Of a stretch of 64,000 bases of DNA, positions 24,263-41,641 are shown piece by piece. The stretch comes from Dyadobacter tibetensis Y620-1. GTDB taxonomy: Bacteria; Bacteroidota; Bacteroidia; Cytophagales; Spirosomataceae. The notes below the pieces were generated by a model. That model saw only the letters and a list, made by a program, of their open reading frames with translations. It was not told where the DNA came from and did not search any database. A program made the position numbers and the translations under genes. Every line of letters begins with the position of its first letter. The first letter of the stretch is position 1. The DNA lies in assembly GCF_000566685.1 (NCBI RefSeq), contig NZ_AZQN01000002.1, positions 1 through 64,000 on the forward strand. The letters run 5' to 3'.

Positions 24263-24276
24263 TTTACTCAACGTTT
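24263..24276 (+). promoter_or_regulatory. TTTACTCAACGTT element, copy 1, abutting the wzc start
   Basis: TTTACTCAACGTTT lies immediately before the ATG of the Wzc-like gene. Related copies occur at 26936, 26956, 27134 and 41615, with a weaker one at 30933. The element occupies the ribosome-binding position. Confidence 0.6.
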
Positions 24277-26667
24277 ATGAAAGAAATACAAAACAGCAAC
24301 AGGTCCCAGGAATATTTTGAAGAAGAAGAACAAGAGTTCGACCTTCAGCAATATATCCGCCGCTATTTCCGCTACTGGTATCTGTTTCCAATCTTCGTAG
24401 CCATCACCCTGACGGCCGCATTCTTCTATCTACAGATTACCCAGCCTGTATACAGCACCAAGACCTCTATGCTTATCAAAGATGAGAAAAAGGGGATCAG
24501 CGGGGCACAGGGAGACATTCTCTCTGAACTCAGCAATCAGTTCGGAGGAAATAAACTCGTAGAAAATGAGATCGAAATTCTGAAATCTCAGAACCTGACC
24601 GAACAGGTCATCAAGGAGCTCGCGCTGGATGTAAGCTATACCACCAAAGAAGGTTTAAGAACGGTAAATATCTATGGCCGCAGTCCCGTTAAGGTTACTC
24701 CAGAGGTGATTACAGAGTATGGTTATGAAGAACCTATGCAGATAGAAATGGTAGACAGCACTCATTTCACGCTTAACGGAAATGATGAGGTATACCCATT
24801 CAATAGCCGGATCACCAATGCCTGGGGAGCTTTTATCGTGCAAAAAGGGGACGAATCGAAGGTTCAGGATCTGAGCATACGCTTTTTACAGTCCAAAAGC
24901 CTGGCAGAGAGTATGCTGGCTCGCCTGAGTGTACAGCAACCCAATGTAAAGAGCACGGTGGTCGAACTCACCTTTGAAGATGTAAATGTCCAGAGGGGCC
25001 GGGATGTTCTGAATAAACTCCTGGATGTATATGTGCGCTCTGCCCTGGCCGACAAAAACAGTGAGGCCAGCAATACCCTGAAATTTATTGAAACCCGTTT
25101 GGGCCTGATAACGGGAGAACTGGGGGATGTAGAAAAGGATGTAGAGACCTATAAGACCAGCAAGGGACTGACCGATATCAGTGCCGAGTCGGAGCTGTTT
25201 CTGGAAAATATTAAGGAAAATGATGCCAAGCTTAATGAGGTGAATACCCAGATATCCATTCTGGAAAGCGTAGACAACTACATTAAGAACGCAGGTGCTG
25301 GGGCCGTAGCACCCGCTACCTATATGATCAACGATCCGGTGCTGGTGTCTTTGCTTACCAAATTTAACGAGCTGGAACTTCAGCGGGAACGCTATGCCCG
25401 TACCACCACCGCCAACAACCCCTTGCTGGAGACCATCAATACCCAGCTGGCCAGTGTAAGGCAGTCTATCCGCGAGAATGTGCAAAATCTTCGCCGGGGT
25501 ATGGATGTTACCAAGCAAAACTTACAGTCGATTAACAGCCGCTTCTCGGCAGGCCTGCGAAGCATACCGCAAAAAGAGCGGGAATATGTGGGCATCAAGC
25601 GCCAGCAGACCATCAAAGAAAATTTATATCTTTATCTGTTACAGAAAAGAGAAGAAACGGCTCTGGCCTATGCCTCCACGGTAACGGACAGCAGGTTGAT
25701 AGACGCCCCAATTTCAACTTTCAAACCTATTAAACCCAAGAAGGCCCTAATCGCCCTGGGAGCTTTAATGGCCGGATTGGCCATCCCCCTGCTCTTGATC
25801 AATCTGATATTCCTGATCAATAATACCGTGCAGAACCGGGAAGATATAGAAAAAAGAACCCACGCCTCCATTCTGGGAGAAATTGGTATGATGAAAGTCA
25901 GCAAGGACCAGCCTGCTTCCGATGCCATTATCAAAATGACCAGCCGGAGTGCAGTAGCCGAACAGTTTAGGGCTCTTCGTACCAACCTTCAATATCTGGG
26001 AGATGGTAGTTGCCGGACCATTATGTTTACCTCTTCGGTGGGTGGAGAAGGGAAAAGCTTTATCAGCATCAACCTGGCGGCTTCTCTGGCCTTTTCCGAC
26101 AAACGGGTGGTATTGCTTGGGCTCGATTTGCGCAAGCCCTCCCTGCAGGACCGTTTGCAGGTGAGCAATTCCAAAGGAGTCTCCAACTATCTGATCGGAC
26201 AATCGGACCTCCCCAATCTGATCCAATCGACCGGTGTACACCCCAGATTCGACGTGATTACCAGTGGTCCCCTACCTCCCAACCCTTCTGAACTCTTAAC
26301 CAACGGACGCCTGCCTCAAATGATTGCTGAGCTGCGCAAGGAATACGATTATGTGCTTATTGACTCCCCTCCCTATGGATTGGTGACCGATGCAGCACTG
26401 ATCGGTGATTTTGTTGACGCCTCCCTTTATGTGGTTCGTTTCAACTATACCTTACTCGATCATTTGAAACGCATTGGCGATTTATATAGAACCAAAAGAT
26501 TCAAAAACCTTTCCATTATCTATAACGGGGTCAATTACGGGGCAGGTTATGGCTATGGCTATGGCTATGGCGGGTATGGATATGGCTATTATACCGAAGA
26601 TGAGGTAAGCGCCAAAACCAAAACCTTAAGCGTAGACAGGCTGAAAAAACTGATAGGCAAAGGTTAA
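24277..26667 (+). CDS. wzc: Wzc-like polysaccharide co-polymerase / BY-kinase
   Basis: 796-residue inner-membrane tyrosine autokinase controlling polymerisation and export. The Wzz domain is flanked by TM1 (YLFPIFVAITLTAAFFYL, ~residue 35) and TM2 (ALIALGALMAGLAIPLLLINLIF, ~490). Between them lies a long coiled-coil region with the GNVR-like periplasmic part. The cytoplasmic kinase has Walker A SSVGGEGKSFISIN (~588), Walker A' LLGLDLRKPSL and Walker B YDYVLIDSPPYG. The C-terminal tail is a tyrosine cluster (YGAGYGYGYGYGGYGYGYY), the autophosphorylation target of the CpsB-like phosphatase. Confidence 0.95.
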   Translation: MKEIQNSNRSQEYFEEEEQEFDLQQYIRRYFRYWYLFPIFVAITLTAAFFYLQITQPVYSTKTSMLIKDEKKGISGAQGDILSELSNQFGGNKLVENEIEILKSQNLTEQVIKELALDVSYTTKEGLRTVNIYGRSPVKVTPEVITEYGYEEPMQIEMVDSTHFTLNGNDEVYPFNSRITNAWGAFIVQKGDESKVQDLSIRFLQSKSLAESMLARLSVQQPNVKSTVVELTFEDVNVQRGRDVLNKLLDVYVRSALADKNSEASNTLKFIETRLGLITGELGDVEKDVETYKTSKGLTDISAESELFLENIKENDAKLNEVNTQISILESVDNYIKNAGAGAVAPATYMINDPVLVSLLTKFNELELQRERYARTTTANNPLLETINTQLASVRQSIRENVQNLRRGMDVTKQNLQSINSRFSAGLRSIPQKEREYVGIKRQQTIKENLYLYLLQKREETALAYASTVTDSRLIDAPISTFKPIKPKKALIALGALMAGLAIPLLLINLIFLINNTVQNREDIEKRTHASILGEIGMMKVSKDQPASDAIIKMTSRSAVAEQFRALRTNLQYLGDGSCRTIMFTSSVGGEGKSFISINLAASLAFSDKRVVLLGLDLRKPSLQDRLQVSNSKGVSNYLIGQSDLPNLIQSTGVHPRFDVITSGPLPPNPSELLTNGRLPQMIAELRKEYDYVLIDSPPYGLVTDAALIGDFVDASLYVVRFNYTLLDHLKRIGDLYRTKRFKNLSIIYNGVNYGAGYGYGYGYGGYGYGYYTEDEVSAKTKTLSVDRLKKLIGKG

Positions 26668-26830
26668 TATTTATCATAACCGTTAGTATACTTATTCATA
26701 AATTGGTATAATATAATTAATTCATCCAAAAAAGTAAACTAACAAGTATTTTGTCAAAATATTTAGTATATAATAAGAAAATTTAACCTAATAAATTTTG
26801 CCAATTGTAAAAAAAATCCTAATTTCGTCC

Positions 26831-26863
26831 CTGTGGATTGTCTTATACCAAGACAATCCACAG
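26831..26863. repeat. Perfect 14-bp inverted repeat between wzc and ugd
   Basis: CTGTGGATTGTCTT, loop ATACC, AAGACAATCCACAG. The stem is perfect but has no T-run on the plus side, so a plain intrinsic terminator is not certain. It lies 164 bases after wzc in a 480-bp gap that otherwise holds AT-rich sequence and motif copies. Confidence 0.8.
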
Positions 26864-26935
26864 AATAAGTCAAAATAGTATGCATTTGAGATAATTAATA
26901 GTAAATTTTCTATTTAGTTTCGAATTGATATTGGA

Positions 26936-26970
26936 TTTTACTCAACGTTATCATATTTACTCAACGTTAT
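26936..26970 (+). promoter_or_regulatory. TTTACTCAACGTTAT element, copies 2 and 3 in tandem
   Basis: TTTTACTCAACGTTAT at 26936-26951 and TTTACTCAACGTTAT at 26956-26970, 20 bases apart. The second overlaps an ATG (26969) opening a six-codon ORF (MKSLLA, then stop). This may be a leader peptide or the stump of a deleted gene. Confidence 0.6.
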
Positions 26971-27133
26971 GAAAAGTCTGTTAGCATAAAAATCAGGCAG
27001 TAAGCCGAATAGACCTCCGGGGCAATAGCGGTTTACTACCTGATGCTGACAGCAATAACAACAGATTTCTACAAACGGGCCAGGATTCCTTTATTTAGAG
27101 TTATGGACCAACAGTTTGAAGTATAGCATTTTA

Positions 27134-27150
27134 TTTTACTCAACGTTATT
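27134..27150 (+). promoter_or_regulatory. TTTACTCAACGTTAT element, copy 4, abutting the ugd start
   Basis: TTTTACTCAACGTTATT directly precedes the ATG at 27151. Same placement as copy 1 before wzc. Confidence 0.6.
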
Positions 27151-28482
27151 ATGAAAATTGCAGTAGTAGGAACCGGTTACGTAGGACTCGTAACGGGAAC
27201 CTGTTTCGCCGAAACAGGGAATCAGGTTACCTGCGTAGACATCGATGCGCATAAGGTAGCCCGGATGCAGAATGGAGAGATCCCCATTTATGAGCCCGGT
27301 CTGGATGTGCTCTTCGACCGCAATATTGCCGAAGGGCGTCTCAGCTTTACCACCAATCTGGCAGAGGGTATTCAGGATGCCGAGGTAATCTTTCTGGCCC
27401 TCCCTACCCCTCCAGGGGAAGATGGCTCAGCCGACCTCAAATATATATTAGGCGTAGCCAATGACCTGGGCCCCCTTCTGCATCAATATGTGGTAGTAAT
27501 CGATAAGAGCACGGTTCCGGTGGGCACCGCACAGAAGGTTCAGGCGGCCATCGCCGCCAATGCTACCGTTCCATTCGATGTAGTGTCCAATCCCGAATTT
27601 TTGCGGGAAGGAGTTGCCGTTGAAGACTTTATGAAACCCGACCGTGTAGTGGTAGGGACTCAGTCGGAGCAGGCCAAAAGAGTGATGGAGAAGCTATATG
27701 CTCCCTTGGTGCGTCAGGGCAACCCCGTTATTTTTATGGACGAACGTTCGGCAGAAATGACCAAATATGCTGCCAACTCATTCCTTGCCCTGAAGATCAC
27801 CTTTATGAATGAGATCGCCAACCTCTGCGAAAAGGTAGGCGCCAATGTAGACGATATCCGCCGGGGCATCGGGACCGACAGTCGCATAGGCAAGCGTTTT
27901 CTCTTTGCCGGTATCGGTTACGGAGGGAGTTGCTTCCCCAAAGACGTGCAGGCACTGGCCCGTACTTCCAGGGATTATGGTTACGACTTCCGCACGCTGA
28001 CCTCGGTGATGGCCGTCAACGAAGATCAGAAGAAAAAGCTAATTCCTATCGTACAGGATTATTTTGAAGGCAACCTGGAAGGGAAAACCATAGCCGTTTG
28101 GGGACTTGCATTTAAGCCCTATACCGACGACATCCGTGAGGCTCCTGCTTTGGAAAATATCAAAGCCCTGATCGCCGCCGGTGCCAAAGTTACCGCCTAC
28201 GATCCGGAAGCCATGGATAATGTAAAGAAACTCCTCCCCGAAATCACCTATTGTCATACGGCCTATGCGGCTTTGGACGATGCCGATGTGCTGATGATCT
28301 TTACGGAATGGCCACAGTTCCGCACCCCGGATTTTGATAAAATGGGCAAACTCCTTAAAAATAAAGTCATTTTCGATGGCCGTAATTTATATGAACTATC
28401 TACGATGAAGGAACAAGGCTTTGCTTATTACAGTATTGGCCGTTCCGCACTGGTGCCAGCCGAAGCTGCCCTGGCCGATTAA
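27151..28482 (+). CDS. ugd: UDP-glucose 6-dehydrogenase
   Basis: 443-residue NAD-dependent dehydrogenase making UDP-glucuronate from UDP-glucose. N-terminal Rossmann motif VVGTGYVGLVTGTCFAE, STVPVGTAQ, NPEFLREG, then central KYAANSFLALKITFMNEIAN and catalytic-Cys motif GYGGSCFPKDV (Cys ~261), C-terminal WGLAFKPYTDDIREAP. Full length. It supplies an acidic sugar precursor to the polymer built by this locus. A strong inverted repeat follows the stop. Confidence 0.95.
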   Translation: MKIAVVGTGYVGLVTGTCFAETGNQVTCVDIDAHKVARMQNGEIPIYEPGLDVLFDRNIAEGRLSFTTNLAEGIQDAEVIFLALPTPPGEDGSADLKYILGVANDLGPLLHQYVVVIDKSTVPVGTAQKVQAAIAANATVPFDVVSNPEFLREGVAVEDFMKPDRVVVGTQSEQAKRVMEKLYAPLVRQGNPVIFMDERSAEMTKYAANSFLALKITFMNEIANLCEKVGANVDDIRRGIGTDSRIGKRFLFAGIGYGGSCFPKDVQALARTSRDYGYDFRTLTSVMAVNEDQKKKLIPIVQDYFEGNLEGKTIAVWGLAFKPYTDDIREAPALENIKALIAAGAKVTAYDPEAMDNVKKLLPEITYCHTAYAALDDADVLMIFTEWPQFRTPDFDKMGKLLKNKVIFDGRNLYELSTMKEQGFAYYSIGRSALVPAEAALAD

Positions 28483-28487
28483 TATAA

Positions 28488-28511
28488 TGGGGCCCGACGA
28501 CCCGGGCCCCA
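28488..28511 (+). terminator. GC-rich hairpin after ugd
   Basis: TGGGGCCCG (28488-28496) pairs perfectly with CGGGCCCCA (28503-28511) across a 6-base loop. There is no clear U-tract, so termination may be partial or act as an mRNA 3' stabiliser. Confidence 0.6.
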
Positions 28512-28608
28512 GCCTATGCCCTTAAGGTAAAATCCTCTCCCCGCCTTAAGCTCTTCAAACCGGGGGAGCGACCCTCATCACTGAAATAGAAATGAATCAT
28601 ATAAGCAC

Positions 28609-29613
28609 ATGTCCAGGATCATTCATGTAATACTTTCTGGTGGCGTTGGCAGCCGTTTATGGCCTGTGTCACGCAAGTCCATGCCGAAGCAGTACATTCC
28701 TATGTTCGACGACAAGTCACTGTTTCAACTCACTGCTGAACGCAACCGTGCCCTGGCCGACCATCTGATGGTGGTGGGCAATAAAGACAATTACTTATTA
28801 TCACAGTCAGATCTGATGCGGGCTGGAATTGGGCATTATACGGAAATCGTAGAAGCCGCTCCCAGAAACACTGCGGCCGCCATCGCCTTTGCGGCCCTGG
28901 CAGCTGCTCCCGAAGACATTCTGCTCATCACCCCATCCGATCATATTATCACCAATGAAGTTGCCTATGCCGCGGCCATTGCAGAAGCCAAAACACTGGC
29001 TGCTCAGGGTCATTTGGTGACCTTTGGCATTACCCCTACCAAGCCGGAGACAGGCTATGGTTATATAGAAACAGCAGGGAATGAGGTACTGGGATTCCGG
29101 GAGAAACCCGATCAGAGTACGGCTCAACTTTTTCTGGAACAAGGAAATTTCCTGTGGAACAGCGGAATGTTCTGTTTTCAGGCTCAGGCTTACCTGGACG
29201 AACTGGAAGCCTTCGAACCCGAAATACTTGAAAAATCAAGGAATTGCTTCGCACTGAGTCAGGATTGTCTTTTGCCCGAAGCAGAGACCATGGAGATACC
29301 CTCGAAAAGTATCGACTATGCGGTAATGGAACGGTCTAAAAGAATAAAGGTGGTTCAAACCTCCTTCGGCTGGTCCGACCTGGGTTCTTTCGAGTCTATC
29401 TGGGAACATTGGGAAACGAAGGGAGAACAACAGCATTTTGTTAGTAATAACTGTGTAGTAGGTTCCAAAAAACATGTAGAGTTTGTAGGAGTAGAGGATT
29501 TGGTACTGGTAGAAACCGAGGATGCCATTCTTGTCCTATCCAAAAAGTGTAGCCAGGATGTAAAAAAGGTTTACGAACGCCTGGAAATTGAAAAGCCCGA
29601 GTTAGTAGCTTAG
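28609..29613 (+). CDS. manC: Mannose-1-phosphate guanylyltransferase
   Basis: 334 residues with the nucleotidyltransferase signature ILSGGVGSRLWPVSRKSMPKQYIP, ITPSDHII and FREKPD, SIDYAVMERS. It makes GDP-mannose from GTP and mannose-1-phosphate. The type-II phosphomannose-isomerase (cupin) domain of bifunctional ManC is absent, so this is the short form. The following fcl and gmd genes use GDP-mannose for GDP-fucose, which explains its place here. Confidence 0.92.
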   Translation: MSRIIHVILSGGVGSRLWPVSRKSMPKQYIPMFDDKSLFQLTAERNRALADHLMVVGNKDNYLLSQSDLMRAGIGHYTEIVEAAPRNTAAAIAFAALAAAPEDILLITPSDHIITNEVAYAAAIAEAKTLAAQGHLVTFGITPTKPETGYGYIETAGNEVLGFREKPDQSTAQLFLEQGNFLWNSGMFCFQAQAYLDELEAFEPEILEKSRNCFALSQDCLLPEAETMEIPSKSIDYAVMERSKRIKVVQTSFGWSDLGSFESIWEHWETKGEQQHFVSNNCVVGSKKHVEFVGVEDLVLVETEDAILVLSKKCSQDVKKVYERLEIEKPELVA

Positions 29614-29628
29614 GGAGAGGATGTCGGT

Positions 29629-29910
29629 GTCACACTGAGCCTGTCGAAGTGTAAAAGAGCAGACATTATTAGATAACCAAAGGGGCCTTCGACAAGCTCA
29701 GGCTGACAGGAATAGCTTCGGCCTTCGACAAGCTCAGGCTGACAGGTCAAGCTGACAAGAAGGAGAAACAGTGTCACACTAAGCCTGTCGAAGTGTTAAA
29801 GAGTAGATATCAGGAGGTAACCGAAGGGGCCTTCGACAAGCTCAGGCTGACAGATCAGGCTCAGGCTGACAGCAAGGAAAAACAGTGTCACACTGAGCCT
29901 GTCGAAGTGT
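29629..29910. repeat. Cluster of six dispersed ~23-bp repeats in alternating orientation
   Basis: CTTCGACAAGCTCAGGCTGA-type units occur at 29686-29708, 29722-29744 and 29830-29852, and near-complementary CACTGAGCCTGTCGAAGTG-type units at 29629-29652, 29773-29796 and 29887-29910, plus a partial unit at 29861. Opposite-orientation neighbours could pair into long hairpins. This sequence type is widespread in environmental Bacteroidota as an intergenic repeat. It fills the manC-fcl gap. Confidence 0.85.
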
Positions 29911-29967
29911 AAAAGAACAGATATTATAAACCAGCAAATAGCCTTAAAGCTAAGGGCATATATTAAA

Positions 29968-30909
29968 ATGAAACAGAACGCAAAAATATATATAGCAGGG
30001 CACCGGGGGATGGTAGGGTCCGCTATCAGAAGAGCCTTACAAGAAAGAGGGTTCGACAATATCGTCGTCAGAACCTCTTCCGAGCTTGACCTGCGCAATC
30101 AGCAGGCTGTGGCGGATTTTTTCGAAGCCGAAAAACCTGAATATGTGTTTTTGGCAGCGGCCAAGGTTGGGGGCATTGTCGCTAATAATACCTACCGTGC
30201 CGACTTTATCTATGAAAACCTGATGATTGAGGCCAATATCATTCATCAGGCCTATGTACATGGCGTTACCAAGCTTATGTTTCTGGGCTCCTCCTGCATC
30301 TACCCCAAGCTGGCCCCCCAGCCCTTGCAGGAAAGCGCTTTGCTTACCGGCCCCCTGGAACCTACCAACGAGCCTTATGCCATAGCAAAAATCGCTGGGA
30401 TCAAGTTATGTGAGGCCTATAGAGACCAATATGGCTGTAATTTTATCAGCGTGATGCCCACCAACCTGTATGGCTATGGTGATAATTACGATCTTCATCA
30501 TTCACATGTACTTCCGGCCCTGATCCGTAAGTTTCATGAGGCCAAAGAAAGTAATAGCCCTACCGTAGAGGCCTGGGGCACGGGCTCTCCCAGAAGGGAA
30601 TTCCTGTTCGCCGACGACCTGGCCGACGCCTGCCTATTCCTGATGGAATCCTATAATGGAAGAGACCTGATCAATATTGGTACCGGTGAAGACCTCACCA
30701 TTAAGGCCCTTACTGAGCTGGTAGCCCAGACCGTAGGATTCACTGGGGAAATCGTCTGGGACAGCAGCAAACCCGATGGGACGCCCCGAAAACTCATGGA
30801 CGTTACCAATCTGCATGCCCTGGGATGGAAACACCGGGTAGAACTGCCGGAGGGTGTGACTCTGGCCTATCAGGATTTCCTTCAACACCAGGTCGTTTAT
30901 TCCGCCTGA
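29968..30909 (+). CDS. fcl: GDP-L-fucose synthase
   Basis: 313-residue SDR-type epimerase/reductase. NAD(P)-binding [24 protein letters not shown] with the catalytic Ser, [11 protein letters not shown] (YxxxK) and [18 protein letters not shown] are diagnostic for GDP-4-keto-6-deoxymannose epimerase/reductase. Together with Gmd, encoded next, it gives GDP-L-fucose, which suggests the exopolysaccharide contains fucose or a derivative. It follows a repeat-filled gap and so probably has its own expression signals. Confidence 0.94.
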
Positions 30910-30932
30910 TAACCTATTGATATTGTACGAAC

Positions 30933-30946
30933 TTTACTGAACTTAT
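30933..30946 (+). promoter_or_regulatory. Weak TTTACTgAAC-TTAT variant before gmd
   Basis: TTTACTGAACTTAT, 6 bases before the gmd ATG, resembles the TTTACTCAACGTTAT element with one substitution and one missing base. It may be coincidence. Confidence 0.3.
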
Positions 30947-30952
30947 ATAAAA

Positions 30953-32098
30953 ATGGAAAATAAAGTAGCATTAATTACCGGTGTAACCGGACAAGACGGA
31001 GCCTATCTAAGTGAACTTCTTTTAAGCAAGGGCTATACCGTGCATGGTGTAAAACGCAGAAGCTCCCTGTTCAATACCGACCGCATCGATCATCTTTATG
31101 AGGATCCACATGTGGATAATGCCAAATTTATCCTTCATTACGGAGACCTTACCGACTCCATGAATCTTACCCGGATCATTCAGGAGGTACAGCCCGACGA
31201 GATTTATAACCTGGCCGCCATGAGCCATGTACAGGTAAGTTTCGAAATGCCGGAATACACCGCCAATGCAGATGGTATCGGTACCCTACGTATCCTGGAA
31301 GCGGTACGCCTGCTGGGATTAACGAAAAAAACTAAGATTTACCAGGCATCCACTTCGGAGCTTTACGGGTTGGTTCAGGCCGTTCCCCAGTCGGAGACGA
31401 CTCCCTTTTACCCACGTTCTCCCTATGCCGTAGCGAAAATGTATGCCTACTGGATTACCGTAAACTACCGGGAAGCCTATGGAATGTTTGCGTCGAACGG
31501 GATTCTTTTCAACCATGAATCTCCCCTGCGTGGAGAGACCTTTGTAACCCGCAAGATTACCCGTGCCGCTGCCAAAATCGTTTTAGGCCTGCAGGACTGT
31601 CTGTATATGGGTAATATTGACGCACAACGCGACTGGGGACACGCCAAGGATTATGTAGAAGCCATGTATCTGATTCTGCAGCAGGAAGTTTCCGAAGACT
31701 ATGTCATCGCCACCGGTGTCACTACCCGGGTACGGGAGTTTATCCGTCAGACCTTCGCCTTTTTAGGAGTAGAGCTTGCCTTTACCGGAAGCGAAGAGAA
31801 TGAGGTAGCAACCATTGCTTCTTTCGATAAGGATCGTATGACGGAGCTAAATATCACCGAAACAGATCATCTGAAAATCGGGGCTACCGTTCTGAAAATC
31901 GATCCCCGCTACTACCGCCCGACCGAGGTTGAGCTACTGATCGGAGACCCTACCAAGTCCAACGAAAAACTTGGCTGGAAACCTAAATATACCCTGCAGA
32001 CCCTGATCGAAGATATGACCTCGGCCGATCTACGTCTGTTCCAAAAAGACCGACTGCTAATGAAAGAAGGCTTTGGGGTATTGAATTATTTTGAATAA
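30953..32098 (+). CDS. gmd: GDP-mannose 4,6-dehydratase
   Basis: 381-residue extended [69 protein letters not shown] with Yxxx[18 protein letters not shown]. It catalyses GDP-mannose to GDP-4-keto-6-deoxymannose, the substrate of Fcl. Full length. Marks the last gene of normal base composition before the AT-rich variable block. Confidence 0.95.
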
Positions 32099-32116
32099 AT
32101 AGAGAATATAAATGGT

Positions 32117-32141
32117 AATAGCTTTAGCCTTTAAAGCTATT
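32117..32141. terminator. Hairpin at the left edge of the AT-rich block
   Basis: AATAGCTTTA (32117-32126), loop GCCTT, TAAAGCTATT (32132-32141). Perfect 10-bp stem between gmd and the first AT-rich gene. It could terminate or attenuate transcription. A longer hairpin sits at the other edge (40314-40352). Confidence 0.6.
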
Positions 32142-32152
32142 GCTTCTCAATT

Positions 32153-32803: not shown

Positions 32804-32827
32804 CTATGTCAACATTAGATTAATATT

Positions 32828-34291
32828 ATGTCGACTTATAAAAGTATCTTAAAATCGACAGGGTTAATTGCTCTTGTTCAAGTGGTTCAGCTTATTTTTG
32901 GTTTAATTAGAAATAAGTTTATTGCATTGTTTTTAGGCACTCATGGATTTGGTATTTGGGGACTATATCAAACTTATATTGAAATGGTATCAACATTCTC
33001 AACGTTGGGAGTTGATCAAAGTTCAGTACGAGAAATAGCCAAAACAGAAGATATCCAGGAAAAGGAACAATATATATATCTAACCAAAATAACAATTCTA
33101 TGTTTTTCATTAATAGCTGCAATTTTTTCTATTTTTTTTTCTAAGTCCATAAGCCGGTCCTTATTTCAGTCAGAAAGCTATTATATAGGAATTATTATAA
33201 TTTCTTCATCAATCATATTTAATGGTGTAAGTAAAGGTCATAAATCTATACTGAATGGTCTTAGGGATATGAAGGGGCTTGCTTTAAGTCAAATAATCGG
33301 TTCTGCCTTAGGATCAATAATTACTATAAGTTTGGTTTATTGGCTAGGATTAGAAGGAATACCATGGTACTTGAGCTTAGTTGGATTGTCAACATTAATA
33401 AGTACCTGGTGGTTTCTAAAAAGACACAATTTAAAACATACTATAATTTCCCGAAAATATTCATACAATAAAATAAAATCGCTATTGTTCTTGGGCTTAG
33501 GTTTTAGCATTACAGCTATAATTGCAGCCTTTTCCTCATACTTCTCAAGGACATACCTAAGTGAAGCATTTAATATCAGTACAGTTGGTTTATATCAAGC
33601 GAGTTGGACAATTTCCAATTTATACATCGGAATTATTTTATCGGCGATGGGTATAGATTTTATGCCCCGATTAGTAAAGGTGATTGATGATTCTAAAAAA
33701 CTAACTTCACTTATTAATGAACAAATGGAATTAGGAGCTCTTATTTCAAGTATCGGTGTCGTGTTTATATTATTGTTCTCGAAATCAATTTTAGAAATAT
33801 TGTATTCTAGTGAGTTCCTTTTAGCAAATGATATAATCAAATGGCAAGTCTTAGGCGTAGCACTTCGGGTGCTAGGATTCCCATTTAGTCACGCTATCAT
33901 GGCTAAAAACAAACCCATTATTTATGTAATCTTACAAGCTGTATTCTGGTCTTTAGATTATATCCTTTTAGTACTCTTAAGTAAAACGTATGGCGTCGGC
34001 GCTCTGGGAGTAAATTATTTCGTAGCCTATATCGTCTATCTTCTATTGTGTTGGCTTATTGCCAAAAGGCTTTATAATTTTCATAGTACAAATATATTAC
34101 GACAGATAGTATGTGGTTCATTTATCTTTATTTGTGCAGCATGGATAATTTCTAATTACACGAGTGGAACCTACCTCATATTTATGGCTATTTCCATCTT
34201 ACTTATCATGGCCGGATGGACTAACTATTATCTTTCAAAGCATATGAATCTATCGATCTTAAATGCTATTAAAAAACAAATAAGAAAATGA
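32828..34291 (+). CDS. wzx: Wzx-like oligosaccharide flippase (MOP superfamily)
   Basis: 487 residues, around 14 predicted hydrophobic segments across the whole length, starting STGLIALVQVVQLIFGLIRNKFIALFLG, which is typical of polysaccharide transporters in the MATE/MOP superfamily. It should flip lipid-linked repeat units across the inner membrane. AT-rich codon usage as in its neighbours. The stop overlaps the next start (ATGA), suggesting translational coupling. Confidence 0.88.
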   Translation: MSTYKSILKSTGLIALVQVVQLIFGLIRNKFIALFLGTHGFGIWGLYQTYIEMVSTFSTLGVDQSSVREIAKTEDIQEKEQYIYLTKITILCFSLIAAIFSIFFSKSISRSLFQSESYYIGIIIISSSIIFNGVSKGHKSILNGLRDMKGLALSQIIGSALGSIITISLVYWLGLEGIPWYLSLVGLSTLISTWWFLKRHNLKHTIISRKYSYNKIKSLLFLGLGFSITAIIAAFSSYFSRTYLSEAFNISTVGLYQASWTISNLYIGIILSAMGIDFMPRLVKVIDDSKKLTSLINEQMELGALISSIGVVFILLFSKSILEILYSSEFLLANDIIKWQVLGVALRVLGFPFSHAIMAKNKPIIYVILQAVFWSLDYILLVLLSKTYGVGALGVNYFVAYIVYLLLCWLIAKRLYNFHSTNILRQIVCGSFIFICAAWIISNYTSGTYLIFMAISILLIMAGWTNYYLSKHMNLSILNAIKKQIRK

Positions 34292-35322
34292 AGACATTGG
34301 TAAAAAAATGGATTCCGTATCCTGTAATTCTCTTCTTTAAGACTCATATTGAAAGAATTAATCTATTACGGGCGTATTTGCATGATGCCGAACGCTTTTT
34401 ATATCATTCTAGCATGTTGCAATATGACAATCAAGGAATTAAACTAGTCGCCACAATAATAAGGAATTATCATGTAATTGAAAAGGGCCTAACGATGCCT
34501 GAAACTCGCCTTGGATTTGGTCAAGATAGAATGCTTCAGCTTATAGATCAATGTATTAGATATATTTCATACTTTGATCGAAATGATGAGCAGATAAAGC
34601 ATGCGAGCCAAGTTATAGCCGAGTATATAACATTTCATGAAGAAAATAATTATCAATTAAATAAAGCAATAATTTCTAAATATAACGATTTAATCTTGAA
34701 ATATGGTAGAATAGATGCCTCTTCTCAAATTTCAATTTCAAGAGAAGACTACTTTGCTAAAACAAATAAGTCCTTTCTAGAGTTTTCAAGTTCTCGTTCG
34801 AGTATTCGTAATTATTGTAACGAGGAAATTCCAATTCAAAAAATAACGGACTCAATTGATATTGCAAGAAATACTCCTTCGGCTTGTAATAGGCAAACCT
34901 CACGAGTTTATGTATATACAGACAAACAACAAATTAGCAAAATATTAGAAATTCAAGGTGGGAATCGTGGCTTTGGACACTTAGCTAATAAATTAATAAT
35001 TATGACGGCGGAATTAGGCGTCTTTAATAGTGTGTCGGAAAGGAACCAGGCCTTCATTGATGGTGGTATGTATGCAATGAATATACTCTATTCATTACAT
35101 TATCACCAAGTAGCTGGATGTATTTTAAATTGTAGTACGGATCCTAAAAAAGATAAAGAACTAAGAAGAGTTTGTGGAATTAAGGAATCCGAGGTTTTTA
35201 TTGCAATGATTTCTTGTGGAATACCACCCAAAACGTTTAAAATCGCAAGCTCCAAACGTTTTTCCATGGATTATATGACTACATATATTCCTTCAATTAG
35301 AATTAAAGAACTGATAAGTTAG
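34288..35322 (+). CDS. Nitroreductase-fold protein in polysaccharide locus
   Basis: 344 residues. The C-terminal ~190 residues show the FMN-dependent nitroreductase fold: FSSSRSSIRNYCNEEIP (FMN-binding RSSxR), IARNTPSACNRQTSRVYVY, and GGMYAMNILYSLHYHQVAGC. The N-terminal ~150 residues are helical and unassigned. Proteins like this recur next to polysaccharide pyruvyltransferases in polysaccharide clusters, as here (two genes upstream). A redox step in sugar or pyruvyl modification is plausible, but the reaction is not known. Confidence 0.7.
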   Translation: MKTLVKKWIPYPVILFFKTHIERINLLRAYLHDAERFLYHSSMLQYDNQGIKLVATIIRNYHVIEKGLTMPETRLGFGQDRMLQLIDQCIRYISYFDRNDEQIKHASQVIAEYITFHEENNYQLNKAIISKYNDLILKYGRIDASSQISISREDYFAKTNKSFLEFSSSRSSIRNYCNEEIPIQKITDSIDIARNTPSACNRQTSRVYVYTDKQQISKILEIQGGNRGFGHLANKLIIMTAELGVFNSVSERNQAFIDGGMYAMNILYSLHYHQVAGCILNCSTDPKKDKELRRVCGIKESEVFIAMISCGIPPKTFKIASSKRFSMDYMTTYIPSIRIKELIS

Positions 35323-35335
35323 TATTGAAGATATT

Positions 35336-36520
35336 ATGATTAAAAAAAGCAATAATATATCAATAGCTGCGACTTTGTTGTGCTCAGTTCACCTTTTTGG
35401 TTTATATTTTCGAGTAGGGGAATCTGTATACTTTATATTAGATGCACTTGCCTTAGTGTTAATATTTCGAGATTTAATTAGCCATAATTACTCTTCCACA
35501 AAAAAGAGAAGCTCGTCGACTTTATTGCAATTATTTTTTGTTGCCATTTTGCTAAGTGCAGTTTCTTGCTGGCTATATCATGACCAAAATATAGTTGCTA
35601 CTATAATTGCTATGAGGTATTTTTTTTATCTTTTAGTGTATTTCCAATTGCACAAATTACGTATTCATAAAGAATTTCTTGAACAGCTAATATTTATATT
35701 GGCAATGGTTTATATGACCGTATTTCTAACACAATTTTTACTATATCCATATAAAATAGTAAACTACGGTAGTATTGAAGGATTTGATAGAGGTTTACTG
35801 AGGTTTCGAATTGAAGGTGCGGGTTTCTTGATGTTATCTACTTTATTAGCCCTGAACCGATTTATTCTTACACGAAAAACGAAATATATAATATTTTATG
35901 CAGTCGGGTTTTTATTTTTATTTTTATTGGGTTTCCGCACACTACTCATTTCCGGCGTAATTGCTTCATATGTATTGGTGATAAGGTTAACAGCAAACCC
36001 TTTTAAAATAATTAGAAATACGTGTATTATTGGTCTTCTCTTAGGATGTATTTATCTATTACCAAGCTTTCAAGATTATATCGATAGTATGACAGAACAA
36101 ACCAAAAACCAATATGTAGATGGTCAAGATTATATTCGTGTAAGAACTTTTAATTTTTTTTCGGATAAAGTCAATGTTGATATAGGAAGCCTAATTTTTG
36201 GTAATGGGTTTCCTCAAGAGGATAGTAGATATGGTAATCTTGTATTAAATATTGGCGCAAAACTAAACGGATATATCTTCGCTGATTTGGGTATCATTGG
36301 ATTTGCGTTTATCTATGGAATATTTGCTCTTATATTGTTTATATCAATATTTATTAAAGCCATTTTTACGAAAACGAGCCAAGACACTTTCTATTTAAGT
36401 TCTTACTTTCTTTATATTCTTATTGCCTCACTTACGACTGTGGAACTATATCGGAATGGAATGTTTGGAATTGAGGCGATGGTTCTTTACTTAATTGATA
36501 TATCTAAAAGAAAATCATAA
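35336..36520 (+). CDS. O-antigen polymerase-like membrane protein (Wzy)
   Basis: 394 residues with about ten hydrophobic segments and a large periplasmic-type loop (~residues 235-300), the usual layout of Wzy/O-antigen ligase proteins. LLGFRTLLISGVIASYVLVIRL carries an Arg of the sort expected in the polymerase pore. Sequence is too variable for certainty; the assignment rests on topology and on lying between Wzx and transferase genes with no other polymerase candidate. Confidence 0.75.
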   Translation: MIKKSNNISIAATLLCSVHLFGLYFRVGESVYFILDALALVLIFRDLISHNYSSTKKRSSSTLLQLFFVAILLSAVSCWLYHDQNIVATIIAMRYFFYLLVYFQLHKLRIHKEFLEQLIFILAMVYMTVFLTQFLLYPYKIVNYGSIEGFDRGLLRFRIEGAGFLMLSTLLALNRFILTRKTKYIIFYAVGFLFLFLLGFRTLLISGVIASYVLVIRLTANPFKIIRNTCIIGLLLGCIYLLPSFQDYIDSMTEQTKNQYVDGQDYIRVRTFNFFSDKVNVDIGSLIFGNGFPQEDSRYGNLVLNIGAKLNGYIFADLGIIGFAFIYGIFALILFISIFIKAIFTKTSQDTFYLSSYFLYILIASLTTVELYRNGMFGIEAMVLYLIDISKRKS

Positions 36521-36522
36521 TT

Positions 36523-37569
36523 ATGAAAATTGTAATTTTAACGTTTCATTATGCCAATAATTACGGAGCTTTACTGCAGTGCTACGCCTTATCCGAGGTA
36601 TTAAAATTAAAAGGACACACCGTAAACTTATTGAACTTAAACAAACCCCCAAAAAAAACTAGTCTAAGGAATAGGATAAGATTTGCAATCTATCACTATC
36701 GCCTAAACAAATTCAGAAAGGAATATCTTCCTAAGCCGACCAGAAAGTATATTAACTATTCTGAACTAAAAGCAGATTTACCTGTGGCTGATTGTTTCAT
36801 TGTTGGTAGTGATCAGGTTTGGAATCCACAAATCACCGGCGATAACTGTTTGGAGTACTTTTTTAGCTTTTTACAAGATAGTCAAAAAAGGATAGCATAT
36901 GCTGCAAGTTTTGGATTAAGTTCTTGGACATCAACCCAATTTGATGACGATATTAAAACCTTTCTGGGAAAATTTGATTCTGTCGGTATTAGGGAAGATT
37001 CGGGAGTAGAGATTGCCAAAGAAATCTTTGGTATCCGATCAAAGCAAGTATTGGACCCTACACTTCTGCTTGATAACTATGATAATCTAACAGGCCCTAC
37101 TACTACAAAAAGCTCGCTAATAACATACAAGTTTGCTAAAGATGATGACTGGTTCAGTTTTGTAAGAGCTGTTAGTGTCCAACTAAATTTAGATCCCATT
37201 GCTCTTAATGAAAATAAACCCCAGAAGGACGTTAAAATTTCTCCCTTCACTTCTGTAGAAGAATGGGTCCGGAAAATAAGGGAAGCTTCGTTCGTAATCA
37301 CAGATTCTTTTCATTGCATGGTGTTCGCAATTATATTCAATAAACCATTTGTAGTATTACCAGCACATCCGGAGAGAATTGGAAGAATGTTGTCCTTGTT
37401 AAAAAGCTTAAATCTTAGCGACAGGTTTTTTTATCAAAAGGAGGATATATTATCGAGTAATATTCTTAGCACAGATATTGATTATAACATAACTAATAAA
37501 CTGCTAAAAGAAATGAGAAAATCTTCGTATGAGTTTTTGGACGAATGTTTAATTAATAATAAAGCTTAA
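36523..37569 (+). CDS. Polysaccharide pyruvyl transferase family protein
   Basis: 348 residues. N-terminal ILTFHYANNYGALLQCYALSEVL, then FIVGSDQVWNP and RIAYAASFG, and C-terminal ITDSFHCMVFAIIFNKPFVVL. These are hallmark motifs of the CsaB/PssM-like pyruvyltransferase family, which puts ketal-linked pyruvate on surface sugars using PEP. Two bases after the Wzy stop, so cotranscribed. The pyruvate would add negative charge to the polymer. Confidence 0.88.
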   Translation: MKIVILTFHYANNYGALLQCYALSEVLKLKGHTVNLLNLNKPPKKTSLRNRIRFAIYHYRLNKFRKEYLPKPTRKYINYSELKADLPVADCFIVGSDQVWNPQITGDNCLEYFFSFLQDSQKRIAYAASFGLSSWTSTQFDDDIKTFLGKFDSVGIREDSGVEIAKEIFGIRSKQVLDPTLLLDNYDNLTGPTTTKSSLITYKFAKDDDWFSFVRAVSVQLNLDPIALNENKPQKDVKISPFTSVEEWVRKIREASFVITDSFHCMVFAIIFNKPFVVLPAHPERIGRMLSLLKSLNLSDRFFYQKEDILSSNILSTDIDYNITNKLLKEMRKSSYEFLDECLINNKA

Positions 37570-37600
37570 ATTAAACCTATTTAGATAATTTAGAAACGCA

Positions 37601-38806
37601 ATGCCGCCAAAAATACTTATTCTCCCTTCTTTTTATCCAATGGAAATGGATTTCCCACGCGGTAACTTTTTCCAAGAACAAACAGAAATGCTCGTACAAA
37701 ACGGAGTTAATGCGACGGTACTTTTCAATGAATCCCGATCTATTAGATCATTCACTATAAAAAAATTTCGCTTGGCTCACTTTCAAACCACCTACGGGAT
37801 TGAGAACAATGTACCTGTTTTTAGAAAAAGAGGATGGAATATAATTCCTACAAAATTTAAACTAGGATCAAAGATTTGGATATACAATTCTATAAAATTG
37901 TTCGAGCATTACATTAATAATTATGGTAAGCCCGATATCATTCATGCACATTGTGCTCAAAATGCAGGCATGGTAGCACTCCATATAAAGAGGAAATATA
38001 ACATCCCATATTTAATTACTGAGCATTCAACTGCTTATGCTTTGAAGCCTTTAAGCGTAGAACTTAAGTCTGCAATAAACGAAGTATATTCGAATGCATT
38101 TAAAGTAATAGCAGTGAGTACAGAATTCCAAAAATTATTAGCTAACAAACTATCTCTACCGGTCAATTTATTTGAAGTGATTCCTAATTTTATAGATACC
38201 AATTATTTTCAAAATACGGCAATTGGAGATTCATCACAGTTACCTTATTTGACAATTTTTACTGTCTGTTACCACGAAAGAAAGAAAAGGATAGATAGAC
38301 TTATTGAAGCATTTCATAATATTTGCCAACAAGTTGCTAATGTAAAATTAGTTATAGGAGGCGTAGGCCCTGAAACAAGTCGTCTGCAAGCTCAGGTTAA
38401 AAGGTTAAATCTTGATTCAAAGATTTCATTTTCAGGATTTTTAACAAAGGAGCAAGTAAAAGATCAGTTATCCAAGACTTCTATATTCGTACTACCAAGT
38501 GATGTAGAAACATTTGGAGTAGTTCTCATTGAAGCTATGGCAATGGGTGTTCCGGTAATATCGACTAGATCAGGGGGACCGGAGGATATCATTAGTCCTG
38601 AGACAGGTATTTTGGTAGAAAAAACTTCAGAAGATTTACAAAAGGCAATTTTACACTTAATCGCCAATAAATCTCAGTTCGACTCCGTTAAAATTCGAAG
38701 GCGTATTTTAGATAATTATAGCGGCAAGGCGGTTGCTGATCAGTATAAATTAATTTATAATAACGCTTTTAGTGCCCTCCTCAATTTTGAATCGACTCGA
38801 AACTGA
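37601..38806 (+). CDS. Glycosyltransferase family 4
   Basis: 401 residues, GT-B fold. N-terminal acceptor domain with IIHAHCAQNAGMVA and LITEHSTAYALKP, C-terminal donor domain with KRIDRLIEAF, SKTSIFVLPSDVETFGVVLIEAMAMGVPVISTRSGGPEDII (E-x7-E motif in ETFGVVLIEAM). Adds one sugar of the repeat unit; donor unknown. Confidence 0.92.
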   Translation: MPPKILILPSFYPMEMDFPRGNFFQEQTEMLVQNGVNATVLFNESRSIRSFTIKKFRLAHFQTTYGIENNVPVFRKRGWNIIPTKFKLGSKIWIYNSIKLFEHYINNYGKPDIIHAHCAQNAGMVALHIKRKYNIPYLITEHSTAYALKPLSVELKSAINEVYSNAFKVIAVSTEFQKLLANKLSLPVNLFEVIPNFIDTNYFQNTAIGDSSQLPYLTIFTVCYHERKKRIDRLIEAFHNICQQVANVKLVIGGVGPETSRLQAQVKRLNLDSKISFSGFLTKEQVKDQLSKTSIFVLPSDVETFGVVLIEAMAMGVPVISTRSGGPEDIISPETGILVEKTSEDLQKAILHLIANKSQFDSVKIRRRILDNYSGKAVADQYKLIYNNAFSALLNFESTRN

Positions 38807-38866
38807 TAAGAGAAGTCTAAAAAATTGATAGCCGTTGCGAATCCATTCCTCACTACTATTTAAATT

Positions 38867-39793
38867 ATGATTTTTCAACCAGCTCCAATCTTGCTATTTA
38901 CCTATAAACGTCTGGCAACGGTTAAAAAGACTATAGAGGCACTTAAAGAAAATGCCTTAGCGGATGAAAGTGATCTATATATCTTTTCGGATGGCCCTAA
39001 GAATGAAAAGGATGCTGAAATAATTGCTTGTCTACGAGATTATTTAAAAACTGTTACAGGCTTCAGAAATATTACCATTTACGAATCTCGTGTAAATAAG
39101 GGTCTGGCATCTTCCATAATAGATGGAGTATCTCTAATTATTAAGCAATCTGAAAAGGTGATAGTTCTGGAGGATGATCTGATAACGACCAAAAACTTTT
39201 TACAATTTATGAACTTAGGTTTGGAGTCATATCATACCAATACGGAGGTGCTTTCCATTTCAGGCTATTCATTTAATCTTGGCGAAAAACAACATAACGA
39301 TGATGACGCATATTTTCTCAACAGAGGGTGGTCTTGGGGTTGGGCTACATGGTTGGACAGATGGGATAATGTGGATTGGTCGGTAAATGATTACCCAAGC
39401 TTCAAAAATAACCTCAAAGCTCGTAAGGAATTTGCCAAAGGAGGCTCTGACCTCAATGCCATGTTAGATAAACAGATGGAAGGATCCTTAGATTCCTGGG
39501 CCATTCGCTGGTTTTATCATCAATTCAAAACCAAGACTTTAACATTATATCCTGTCTATTCAAAGATATTTAATGAAGGTTTTGACAGCGACGCGACGCA
39601 TACAACAGGCTCAGAAAGACGATATATTCCGAATATCGATAAGTTATGTAGATTCGATTTTCAGTTTCCGAAAACTATTGCGCTTTCCAAACATTTTCAG
39701 AAGAAATTTAATGATAAAATGGGTCTACAGCAAAGGTTTCTTTCTAAGCTTGAATCATATATAGTCAAATTTTCACGAAATTTTTCAAAATAA
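38867..39793 (+). CDS. GT-A-type glycosyltransferase
   Basis: 308 residues. PILLFTYKRLATVKKTIEAL begins a GT-A nucleotide-binding domain. VIVLEDDLITTKNFLQFMN has the metal-binding EDD, as in GT2/GT13-related transferases. FLNRGWSWGWATWLDRWD is typical of a group of bacterial transferases in polysaccharide loci. Probably adds a sugar of the repeat unit. The stop overlaps the next start by one base. Confidence 0.85.
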   Translation: MIFQPAPILLFTYKRLATVKKTIEALKENALADESDLYIFSDGPKNEKDAEIIACLRDYLKTVTGFRNITIYESRVNKGLASSIIDGVSLIIKQSEKVIVLEDDLITTKNFLQFMNLGLESYHTNTEVLSISGYSFNLGEKQHNDDDAYFLNRGWSWGWATWLDRWDNVDWSVNDYPSFKNNLKARKEFAKGGSDLNAMLDKQMEGSLDSWAIRWFYHQFKTKTLTLYPVYSKIFNEGFDSDATHTTGSERRYIPNIDKLCRFDFQFPKTIALSKHFQKKFNDKMGLQQRFLSKLESYIVKFSRNFSK

Positions 39794-40332
39794 TGATCCA
39801 ATTGATTAAAAAACTACGTGATTTATATTTGGTTCATATTAAATACCGCTCCTATAATATAAAGTCTGGTTTTCATGCAGGAGCTCGAGTAAGATTATGG
39901 GCCCCCCATCAATTACAAATAGGCAAAAGCTTCTATATCGGCCGTGATTCGTTTATTGAAACTGATTGTGTAATTGGCGATTATGTCCTAATTGCAAATC
40001 GTGTGGGCATCATAGGTAAATACGATCATAACTATCAAGAAATAGGAACACCGATTAGATTGGCTGAAAGTATTAGGGACAAAAATTATAGTTGGAAAGG
40101 CAAGAACGTTATAACCTATATTGGCAATGACGTATGGATAGGTTATGGGGCCATAATTATGGGGGGTATCCAAATTGGAGAGGGATCAATAATTGCAGCA
40201 GGAAGTATCGTCACTAAAAATGTTGACCCTTATTCCATATATGCAGGTAATCCCGCTAAGAAAATTAGGGATAGATTTGAGACTGCTGAAGATTTGAAGT
40301 TACACAAGTATAAACTTATCAAAAGTTATTAA
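39793..40332 (+). CDS. Hexapeptide-repeat acyltransferase (WcaF/WcaB-like)
   Basis: 179 residues of left-handed beta-helix repeats (IGKSFYIGRDSFIETDCVIGDYVLI, IGNDVWIGYGAIIMGGIQIGEGSIIAAGSIV) ending YSIYAGNPAKKIR. Putative catalytic His in GKYDHNY. It overlaps the preceding stop (TAATG), so it is coupled to the transferase. The stop codon lies inside a perfect 18-bp hairpin. Likely a second acetyltransferase of the polymer. Confidence 0.88.
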   Translation: MIQLIKKLRDLYLVHIKYRSYNIKSGFHAGARVRLWAPHQLQIGKSFYIGRDSFIETDCVIGDYVLIANRVGIIGKYDHNYQEIGTPIRLAESIRDKNYSWKGKNVITYIGNDVWIGYGAIIMGGIQIGEGSIIAAGSIVTKNVDPYSIYAGNPAKKIRDRFETAEDLKLHKYKLIKSY

Positions 40333-40352
40333 ACTAATAACTTTTGATAAGT
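40314..40352. terminator. Perfect 18-bp hairpin at the right edge of the AT-rich block
   Basis: ACTTATCAAAAGTTATTA (40314-40331), loop AAC, TAATAACTTTTGATAAGT (40335-40352). The acyltransferase stop codon TAA (40330-40332) is within it. No U-tract follows, so it may serve as a 3' stabiliser or bidirectional terminator. Confidence 0.75.
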
Positions 40353-40560
40353 ACTAACATATATAGACCGCCTTAATTCGGACGAAGCAGATATTAGTAA
40401 AGGGAAATAAGATTTCTCTCCTACCGATCGTAGTGCTTTTCAAAAAAATGCCGTATTACACTATAACGAATATTATACTCCATCCATTAGTCTAGATGTA
40501 TTAAAAAATGCCTATAGAACGATTAACAGAGAAAAGGGAATTCTTAAATTGCAACATTAG
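40351..40560 (+). pseudogene. Remnant of a lost polysaccharide gene
   Basis: One frame can be read from 40351 through VLTYIDRLNSDEADISKGK, a single stop (40411-40413), then DFSPTDRSAFQKNAVLHYN and EYYTPSISLDVLKNAYRTI to a stop at 40558-40560. The stretch is out of frame with the WecG-like gene, which starts inside it. The S-x-x-L-D-x(6)-T pattern near the end recalls the C-terminus of initiating sugar transferases, but I am not sure of the family. Confidence 0.4.
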
Positions 40561-41311
40561 TATAGGCAGTTACAGAGCCTTTATTAATACGTTAACCCTG
40601 AATGCAGCTACGCTTACCTCCACAACAGTTTGTGTAGCTAACGTGCATATGCTGGTGGAGGCTAATCAGGACATATTTATGCAGGCAATTCTGAATCGTG
40701 CCGATGTAGTCACTCCAGACGGTATGCCTCTTGCTAAGGGTCTGGAAATAATCTATGGAGCCAAACAGGATCGGGTCGCTGGAATGGATCTGCTGCCTTC
40801 CCTGATAGAAGAAGCTGCGAAGCGTGGGATTGGCGTCTTTTTTTATGGCTCAACGGATGAAGTTCTGAATGCGATGATCAAAAGGGCCACTAGCGAATAC
40901 CCACATTTGAATGTGGCCGGTGCTTACTCTCCTCCCTTTCGGGCAATGACAGAAGAAGAAGATCAAGAAGTAATCTCTATGATCAACAAGGTACAGCCTG
41001 GTTTTGTGTTTGTAGGATTAGGTTGTCCCAAACAGGAAAAATGGATGTTCAAAATGCAAGGCAAAATCCATTCCGTGATGATAGGACTGGGTGGAGCATT
41101 TCCCGTCTATGCCCGCACTCAAACCAGGGCTCCTCAATGGATGCAGGACAAAGGGCTGGAGTGGTTGTTCCGGCTATATCAGGAACCTGGTAGATTGTGG
41201 AAACGCTATCTGGTTACTAATACCATTTTTATGAAGCTTTTCGCCCAGGAGTACTATCATAAAGTCATACGTGGTAAGGTTAGTCATAAAGAAAGGGAGA
41301 ACTGGGTTTAG
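40508..41311 (+). CDS. WecG/TagA/CpsF family glycosyltransferase
   Basis: 267 residues, GT26 family. VTPDGMPLAKGLEIIYG (catalytic-type Asp in TPDG), RVAGMDLLPSLIEEA, GIGVFFYGSTDEVL, PGFVFVGLGCPKQEKWM, GLGGAFPVYARTQTRAPQWMQDKGLEWLFRLYQEP are hallmark motifs. It adds the second sugar onto an undecaprenyl-diphosphate-linked first sugar, such as UDP-ManNAc or UDP-GlcA derivatives in other loci. It precedes the gene for the initiating transferase. Base composition returns to the genome norm here. Confidence 0.92.
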   Translation: MPIERLTEKREFLNCNISIGSYRAFINTLTLNAATLTSTTVCVANVHMLVEANQDIFMQAILNRADVVTPDGMPLAKGLEIIYGAKQDRVAGMDLLPSLIEEAAKRGIGVFFYGSTDEVLNAMIKRATSEYPHLNVAGAYSPPFRAMTEEEDQEVISMINKVQPGFVFVGLGCPKQEKWMFKMQGKIHSVMIGLGGAFPVYARTQTRAPQWMQDKGLEWLFRLYQEPGRLWKRYLVTNTIFMKLFAQEYYHKVIRGKVSHKERENWV

Positions 41312-41641
41312 GACATATATCCTTAAAAATCAACCTTCCAGCCACATATTTATTACCATTAACTAAGTTTTTAACCTTTTAATAGTACAATTCAGTTAAA
41401 TTTTTGAAGTTTAATAACAAAATAACTTTTGTCCTAAAAACATTTATTTGATACTGTACAATATTTGGTATATTCGTATTAGAATACAAGGGTTTTAATA
41501 ATAAATAGTTAGAAGTTATTCTATATATTTGCATTTGCATGTCTAGGCTATTTAGCTAAAACATGTAAAACCTAAAATTCAGCTTTGTCGAACCTTACTC
41601 AGTCCGGCCAAGTCATTACTCAACGTTATTATAAAAACATC
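41312..41641. promoter_or_regulatory. 330-bp AT-rich gap with candidate promoter and motif copy
   Basis: Contains a TATATTTG (41524-41531) that fits the -7 box of Bacteroidota promoters, without a good -33, and the fifth motif copy at its end. An in-frame TTG at 41585 could start the next protein earlier, but that leader would not look like the family. Confidence 0.4.
41615..41630 (+). promoter_or_regulatory. ATTACTCAACGTTATT element, copy 5
   Basis: Ends 11 bases before the ATG at 41642 of the initiating sugar transferase. Shares 14 of 15 core bases with copies at 26936 and 27134. Confidence 0.6.

Follow-up and report, generated by a model that had tools for sequence, protein, structure and literature searches.

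The window considered here, 64,000 nucleotides (nt) of Dyadobacter tibetensis Y620-1 (contig NZ_AZQN01000002.1, positions 1 to 64,000), contains a 15-mer element that recurs at gene starts in what can be recognized, from its Pfam-assigned genes, as an exopolysaccharide (EPS) locus. The genes concerned are wzc (24277..26667, with Wzz, GNVR and AAA_31 domains), ugd, encoding a UDP-glucose/GDP-mannose dehydrogenase (27151..28482), and the gene for an initiating sugar transferase (41642..43012; Bac_transf, PF02397, and CoA_binding_3), all on the + strand. Genes for Poly_export, ManC-like, GDP-mannose dehydratase, Polysacc_synt and CpsB_CapC proteins are found around them.

The first copy of the element, TTTACTCAACGTTTA at 24263..24277, has two mismatches to the 15-mer and overlaps the wzc ATG at 24277. 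Two exact copies, 19 nt apart, lie in the ugd leader about 180-215 nt upstream of ugd, at 26937..26951 and 26956..26970; the latter overlaps the start codon of a 6-codon leader open reading frame (ORF), MKSLLA followed by a stop codon (26969..26989, + strand). Another exact copy at 27135..27149 comes to within a single base of the ugd ATG (27151), and the last, at 41615..41629 with one mismatch, ends 12 nt ahead of the ATG of the transferase gene (41642) and is retained in other species. A preliminary description of this DNA had found all five copies but placed two of them one base low (26937 and 27135 are correct). It also put the transferase copy 11 bases from its gene, one too few, and had copies 1, 3 and 4 touching an ATG, which holds for copies 1 and 3, whereas copy 4 stops one base short.

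The core of the element, ACTCAACGTT, starts at 24266, 26940, 26959, 27138 and 41618, always on the + strand and in sense orientation. Shuffled sequences contained it 0.04 times on average and none of 100 shuffles reached five copies, by which chance was rejected as the origin of the copies in the window. With up to three mismatches, the 15-mer is found five times against a shuffle mean of 1.96, and 7 of 100 shuffles reach that number, so by number alone this result lacks significance; when at most one mismatch is allowed, four copies are found against a mean of 0.01, a number that none of 100 shuffles attains. The 5.3 Mb genome contains eight exact copies of the 12-mer TTACTCAACGTT, five of them within this 17-kb stretch. 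The exact copies are thus not randomly scattered, and the earlier impression that the element occurs only in this locus was nearly right, but for three copies elsewhere. At up to one mismatch, no excess was seen over the whole genome (19 matches, compared with 32 for the reversed control). One such one-mismatch copy, TGACTCAACGTT, lies upstream of a response-regulator gene at a distance of about 45 nt (G000:C1:712640).

Two of the three remaining exact copies of TTACTCAACGTT (L006 and L007) are antisense and lie inside predicted small RNA (sRNA) genes, and the third (L008) is sense. On the opposite strand of L006 and L007, ATAACGTTGAGTAAA is followed after 4-8 nt by a strong hairpin, that is, an intrinsic terminator, and a T run; L007 is preceded on its own strand by an ABC-transporter-like ORF. 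The predicted sRNA genes, at least two in number and outside the window, represent two families, A (G000:C2:256841-256927) and B (G000:C4:471029-471132), and share an anatomy of 5' hairpin, seed stretch AUAACGUUGAGUAAA and terminator hairpin. AUAACGUUGAGUAAA is the exact complement of the element, and an RNA exposing it would be perfectly complementary to UUUACUCAACGUUAU; between family B and the leader mini-ORF the match spans 20 nt. L008 was rejected as an sRNA gene, since its copy is sense and lies before a terminator upstream of rmlD. Partial antisense seeds occur at two other places: one with two mismatches before a terminator (L014, C4:328395), which may mark a third, diverged sRNA, and two copies at L013 (G000:C3:1122129), which may be a further one.

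The element is therefore very probably the messenger RNA (mRNA) half of an sRNA-mRNA pair, in which sRNAs acting in trans would bind at the start codons of EPS genes and are predicted to control several of these genes together. The case is an analytical one, built on complementarity, conservation, strand bias, the family A promoter, terminator anatomy and covariation. The preliminary description had proposed a translational operator coordinating polymer synthesis, which was the right idea, although the likely partner is an antisense sRNA and not a protein.

Family A was modeled from 12 sequences (model R1, alignment A1) and family B from seven (R2, A2). R1 matches all 34 same-genus genomes listed, with E values up to 3e-12, and 117 of 200 genomes of the family Spirosomataceae (E up to 0.01), spread over 20 of 36 genera (the 63 genomes counted as non-matching were not listed). 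Family B, which has its own 5' part and its own terminator, is matched by R2 in 15 of the 34 same-genus genomes listed (E up to 1e-11). Among 30 copies of family A, including most of the 12 model sequences, the ATAACGTTGAGTAAAATC seed is invariant, and a promoter of its own is indicated by a TAnnTTTG motif that all 30 have 28-32 nt ahead of the seed (background 3.3%); the family B promoter was judged by eye only. Compensatory changes affect both helices across 28 distinct family A sequences, with a score that was reached by 0/500 shuffles and stands above slid controls, as would be seen for a conserved structure with an intrinsic terminator. No Rfam family matched at its gathering score in 15 loci. 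Below threshold, the family B locus gave Qrr at 23.5 bits (gathering 50, E 0.62) and RcsR1 at 20.3 bits (gathering 60, E 1.1), both at chance level, and nothing overlapped family A.

In other genera, R1 and R2 often match identical loci. The 20 loci fetched at such matches all contain CATAACGTTGAGTAAA, with GTTTTT or similar before it in 18, CAT before and GAGTAAA after the palindrome AACGTT in all 20, and a hairpin following the seed in every case; a terminator was called by script in 19/20, and the terminator stems differ in sequence. In a sample of the phylum, TTCATAACGTTGAGTAAA with up to one mismatch was present in 4/4 genomes of the family and in 3 of 391 others, the reversed control having about 10 matches in all; the seed is at chance level in these 391 genomes outside the family.

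Within the genus, the 15-mer at up to one mismatch is present in all 41 genomes searched (292 matches, compared with 52 for the reversed control). Among 122 distinct sites of this kind from genus sources, 52 are antisense directly before a terminator, 29 are sense within 60 nt of an ORF of at least 100 codons, 19 are sense before a terminator and 22 are other, shares that are not unbiased because many sources were fetched by model or by gene. Four of the 29 are class E sites (see below) with doubtful ORFs, and the 22 fall outside all scripted classes, some being leader sites and some probably chance.

Does the seed select the starts at which the element sits? Seed-only energies were used for ranking, whole-RNA duplex energies being too noisy, over 74 start regions of the window (73 ORFs of at least 100 codons plus the mini-ORF, added by hand). 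For both seeds the mini-ORF came first, wzc second, ugd third and the transferase fourth. A weak copy suggested earlier before gmd (about 30933..30947, + strand) has more than three mismatches and is unsupported by itself; the gmd start ranked 7th of 74 for seed B and lay outside the nine best shown for seed A.

Conservation at orthologous starts was assessed for the transferase in loci from the 29 best-scoring of 40 other genus genomes, and for wzc likewise in 29. At transferase starts the element is present with up to two mismatches in 12/29 and with up to three in 19/29, each of these 19 stopping 3-11 nt short of the ATG; the averages for shuffled motifs were 0.01 and 0.10, and 0/1000 reached the observed counts. 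At wzc starts it is present with up to two mismatches in 6/29, all overlapping the ATG, which again 0/1000 shuffled motifs reached. In 13 named Dyadobacter wzc loci (of the 14 found for the window Wzc in named genomes), the 350 nt after wzc hold an exact site in seven, one with two mismatches in two and one with three mismatches in one. Where ugd was recognized, in 7 of the 13, it always had an upstream site, at varying distances; in L051, the next gene seen after wzc is manC. The expected conservation upstream of orthologs is thus borne out in many species for ugd and the transferase, but for wzc in only 6/29. By eye, leader ORFs of about 37-40 codons seem to run from the element to just before ugd in L053, L055 and L057, and two of these look alike.

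Orientation provides a further test. Near 925 distinct mechanical ORF starts from 225 genus sources, exact ACTCAACGTTAT is sense in 32 cases and antisense in one, and 200 shuffled motifs reach at most one; the counts were the same for a wider set of 973 starts that included some other-genus loci. At one mismatch the ratio is 41:2, and for ACTCAACG, the left part of the element, 53:1. The rate of starts with the element is biased because sources were partly fetched for the motif, while the orientation itself is unselected, apart from cases in which the query was the start of the gene concerned. Where Pfam gave a name, the starts with the element belong to EPS genes, to genes for glycosyltransferases, an acyltransferase and an NHL-repeat protein, and to others, in a survey that did not look for SusC starts. 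Beyond wzc, ugd and the transferase, the element stands at manC (48 nt), a group 1 glycosyltransferase (overlapping), an acyltransferase (29 nt), a PMT_2 protein (overlapping) and an NHL-repeat protein (30 and 67 nt). Some genes without a clear EPS link also have it, e.g. two whose products were named by eye as XRE-like and DJ-1-like, and in the D. tibetensis genome one further start, that of a Sulfatase/EptA-like protein (L294), has ACTCAACGTTAGTATAAATG 8 nt before it. In two other genera, L310 and L325 encode orthologous secreted proteins (51% identity over 180 residues) with ACTCAACGT 7-8 nt before the start, and one of them gave a sub-threshold outer-membrane barrel match; with two genomes searched, this secreted protein is a possible older target of the seed.

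We propose that the A and B loci would yield RNAs of about 80-100 nt, each with a 5' hairpin, a seed with AUAACGUUGAGUAAA and a terminator hairpin, and we infer that these are expressed and paired in the cell. An uninterrupted duplex of 13-20 nt could form between the seed and UUUACUCAACGUUAU on the start codons of wzc and of the leader ORF of ugd, immediately ahead of the ugd start, and a short way upstream of the transferase start. Given pairing, repression is the likely outcome: ribosomes would be kept off the starts, lowering several EPS proteins together. The wzc and mini-ORF sites include the ATG, the ugd site stops one base from it and the transferase site 12 nt from it; pairing at such positions should block ribosomes, as reported for FopS in Bacteroides (PMC11697453).

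An alternative can be derived from the palindrome within the element: a transcription factor, one of the partners considered in the preliminary description, might bind it as a DNA operator at EPS genes and sRNA loci alike, and the clustering of five copies in one locus would suit such a factor. An operator should show no strong strand preference, however, and what was found is 32 sense to one antisense at ORF starts, with sites on or against start codons and the partner copies placed just before terminators. By eye, transferase starts also keep ACTCAACG better than the right half of the palindrome. The operator was rejected on strand bias and we regard it as very unlikely. It is highly improbable, too, that an RNA-binding protein (e.g. 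one with an RRM) recognizes the element at mRNA starts while small RNAs titrate it. The genome does encode one RRM_1 protein, of the domain kind of RbpB, and Bacteroides RbpB is reported to work with FopS sRNAs (PMC11697453). This explanation was nonetheless rejected because the sRNAs hold the complement and not the element itself, and in other genera the complement is retained outside the palindrome as well, in the flanks of the 20 loci. The RRM_1 gene adjoins the Sulfatase/EptA-like gene that has the element (G000:C9:178929-181282; L332, L294). The crowding of short, nearly identical copies into one locus, with a 19-nt spacing between two of them, could also reflect scars left by duplication or recombination of gene starts, another earlier suggestion. 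Similarity among the window copies ends at the element and a few bases, though, and orthologous starts in other species retain the element at changing distances; scars were rejected on that conservation and their probability is negligible.

A rival of another kind lies inside the pairing reading itself. The same pairing could activate or stabilize the mRNA, or act mainly in leaders, without blocking start codons. The two leader sites about 180-215 nt upstream of ugd would fit this, as would the sense element plus terminator that precedes rmlD or a ferritin-like gene in relatives, and that is also found in the D. tibetensis genome at L008. Against it, the wzc sites in the window and six other species and the mini-ORF site overlap the ATG itself, and FopS pairing of such a kind is reported to repress (PMC11697453). 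We consider this outcome unlikely.

Several observations weigh against the proposed sRNA pairing at EPS starts. The seed is only partly open in the folded RNAs, with a mean unpaired probability of 0.62 in A and 0.76 in B, compared with 0.34 and 0.32 for the remainder of the RNA. It shows no variation in the 30 aligned family A copies, which leaves nothing there for target sites to covary with. No site was found at 23 of the 29 wzc starts or within 350 nt after wzc in 3 of the 13 EPS loci (L058-L060), and wza had a site in 1 of 10 relatives (3 of 13 loci had no ORF of the expected size). Other-genus transferase starts lacked the site in 22/22 loci of 20 genomes chosen by sRNA model matches, as did six more distant loci dropped from that count. 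The link to EPS is therefore genus-level, since wzc and wza sites are sparse and none was seen at other-genus transferase starts. A gapped core-plus-ATG pattern showed no overall excess in the D. tibetensis genome (7, compared with 10 for the reversed control); elsewhere it gave 17 versus 13 in G044 and 13 versus 3 in G066.

Sense copies of the element followed by a terminator form a separate group. In 7 of the 41 genus genomes, D. tibetensis not among them, minimal sense-element RNA genes were identified (class E, L295-L301; L295, L296 and L298 correspond to L160, L165 and L033). Each has a -7-like box (six times TATATTTG, once a TTTTTTTG-like version) 17-22 nt before ACTCAACGTTATTA, then A-rich letters and a GGGCTTC...GAAGCCC hairpin with a T run; an ATGAC...GTCAT repeat lies upstream in 7/7. 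At nine loci (L021, L028, L035, L046, L049, L166, L168, L176 and L186) a sense element together with a GTTAGTCTGAAAGCAT-like stretch and a terminator precedes a Ferritin_2 gene by roughly 180-245 nt, the product having been tested by Pfam in L021 and L166. In three genomes a sense element and then a terminator precede rmlD (L008 at G000:C4:593194, L172 and L174; RmlD_sub_bind by Pfam in L008 and L172). Such RNAs would carry the anti-seed and are possible sponge RNAs, and the sense-element leaders may be either decoys or attenuators. We tentatively suggest a circuit of three layers, in which at least two seed-sharing sRNAs would repress several EPS starts, while sponges of about 50 nt (promoter, anti-seed UUUACUCAACGUUAU, terminator) and leader decoys (the ugd mini-ORF, rmlD, the ferritin-like gene) would titrate the sRNAs and so release the polymer.

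The closest described system appears to be FopS, a paralogous sRNA family that works with RbpB in Bacteroides thetaiotaomicron (PMC11697453). Both are multi-copy Bacteroidota sRNA families with canonical promoters of the lineage and a shared seed that pairs, here by prediction, near the start codons of glycan-related mRNAs. In contrast, the FopS seed lies in the 5' part, whereas here it lies between the 5' hairpin and the terminator; FopS targets mainly SusC-like transporters and not, as here, EPS synthesis and export genes at several starts per locus; and possible sponge RNAs are present here. The predicted sRNAs would be FopS-like in action, a likeness of mode and not of demonstrated kinship or membership. 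Rfp18 of Flavobacterium psychrophilum is likewise a Bacteroidota sRNA, conserved widely across its genus, with several predicted targets through one pairing region, but those targets are metalloproteases and an adhesin, and its deletion lowered two target mRNAs (PMC9723704).

Start-site pairing is familiar from the enterobacteria, in a different lineage, where Hfq-dependent sRNAs that act close to start codons repress genes of the outer membrane or the biofilm matrix, and it is predicted here too. To our knowledge, hardly any sRNA has been studied in the Spirosomataceae part of the Bacteroidota, and searches of the open-licence PubMed Central literature yielded nothing on such an sRNA or sequence. 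If the proposal is true, it would define by sequence an sRNA family of the Spirosomataceae with named targets, and would make it testable whether pairing at multiple starts within one locus turns the whole of polymer synthesis on or off together. Possible sponges and a site at a mini-ORF would be uncommon features of such a system.

Two further features of the window resemble a -7 box. TAGTTTCG at 26915..26922 (+ strand), upstream of the ugd leader, is one letter off TAnnTTTG and is a possible -7 box by consensus match only; TATATTTG at 41524..41531 (+ strand), matched by eye, could serve the transferase transcript. Finally, CTTCGACAAGCTCAGGCTGACA repeats are found at 29627-29967, between the manC-like and epimerase genes.

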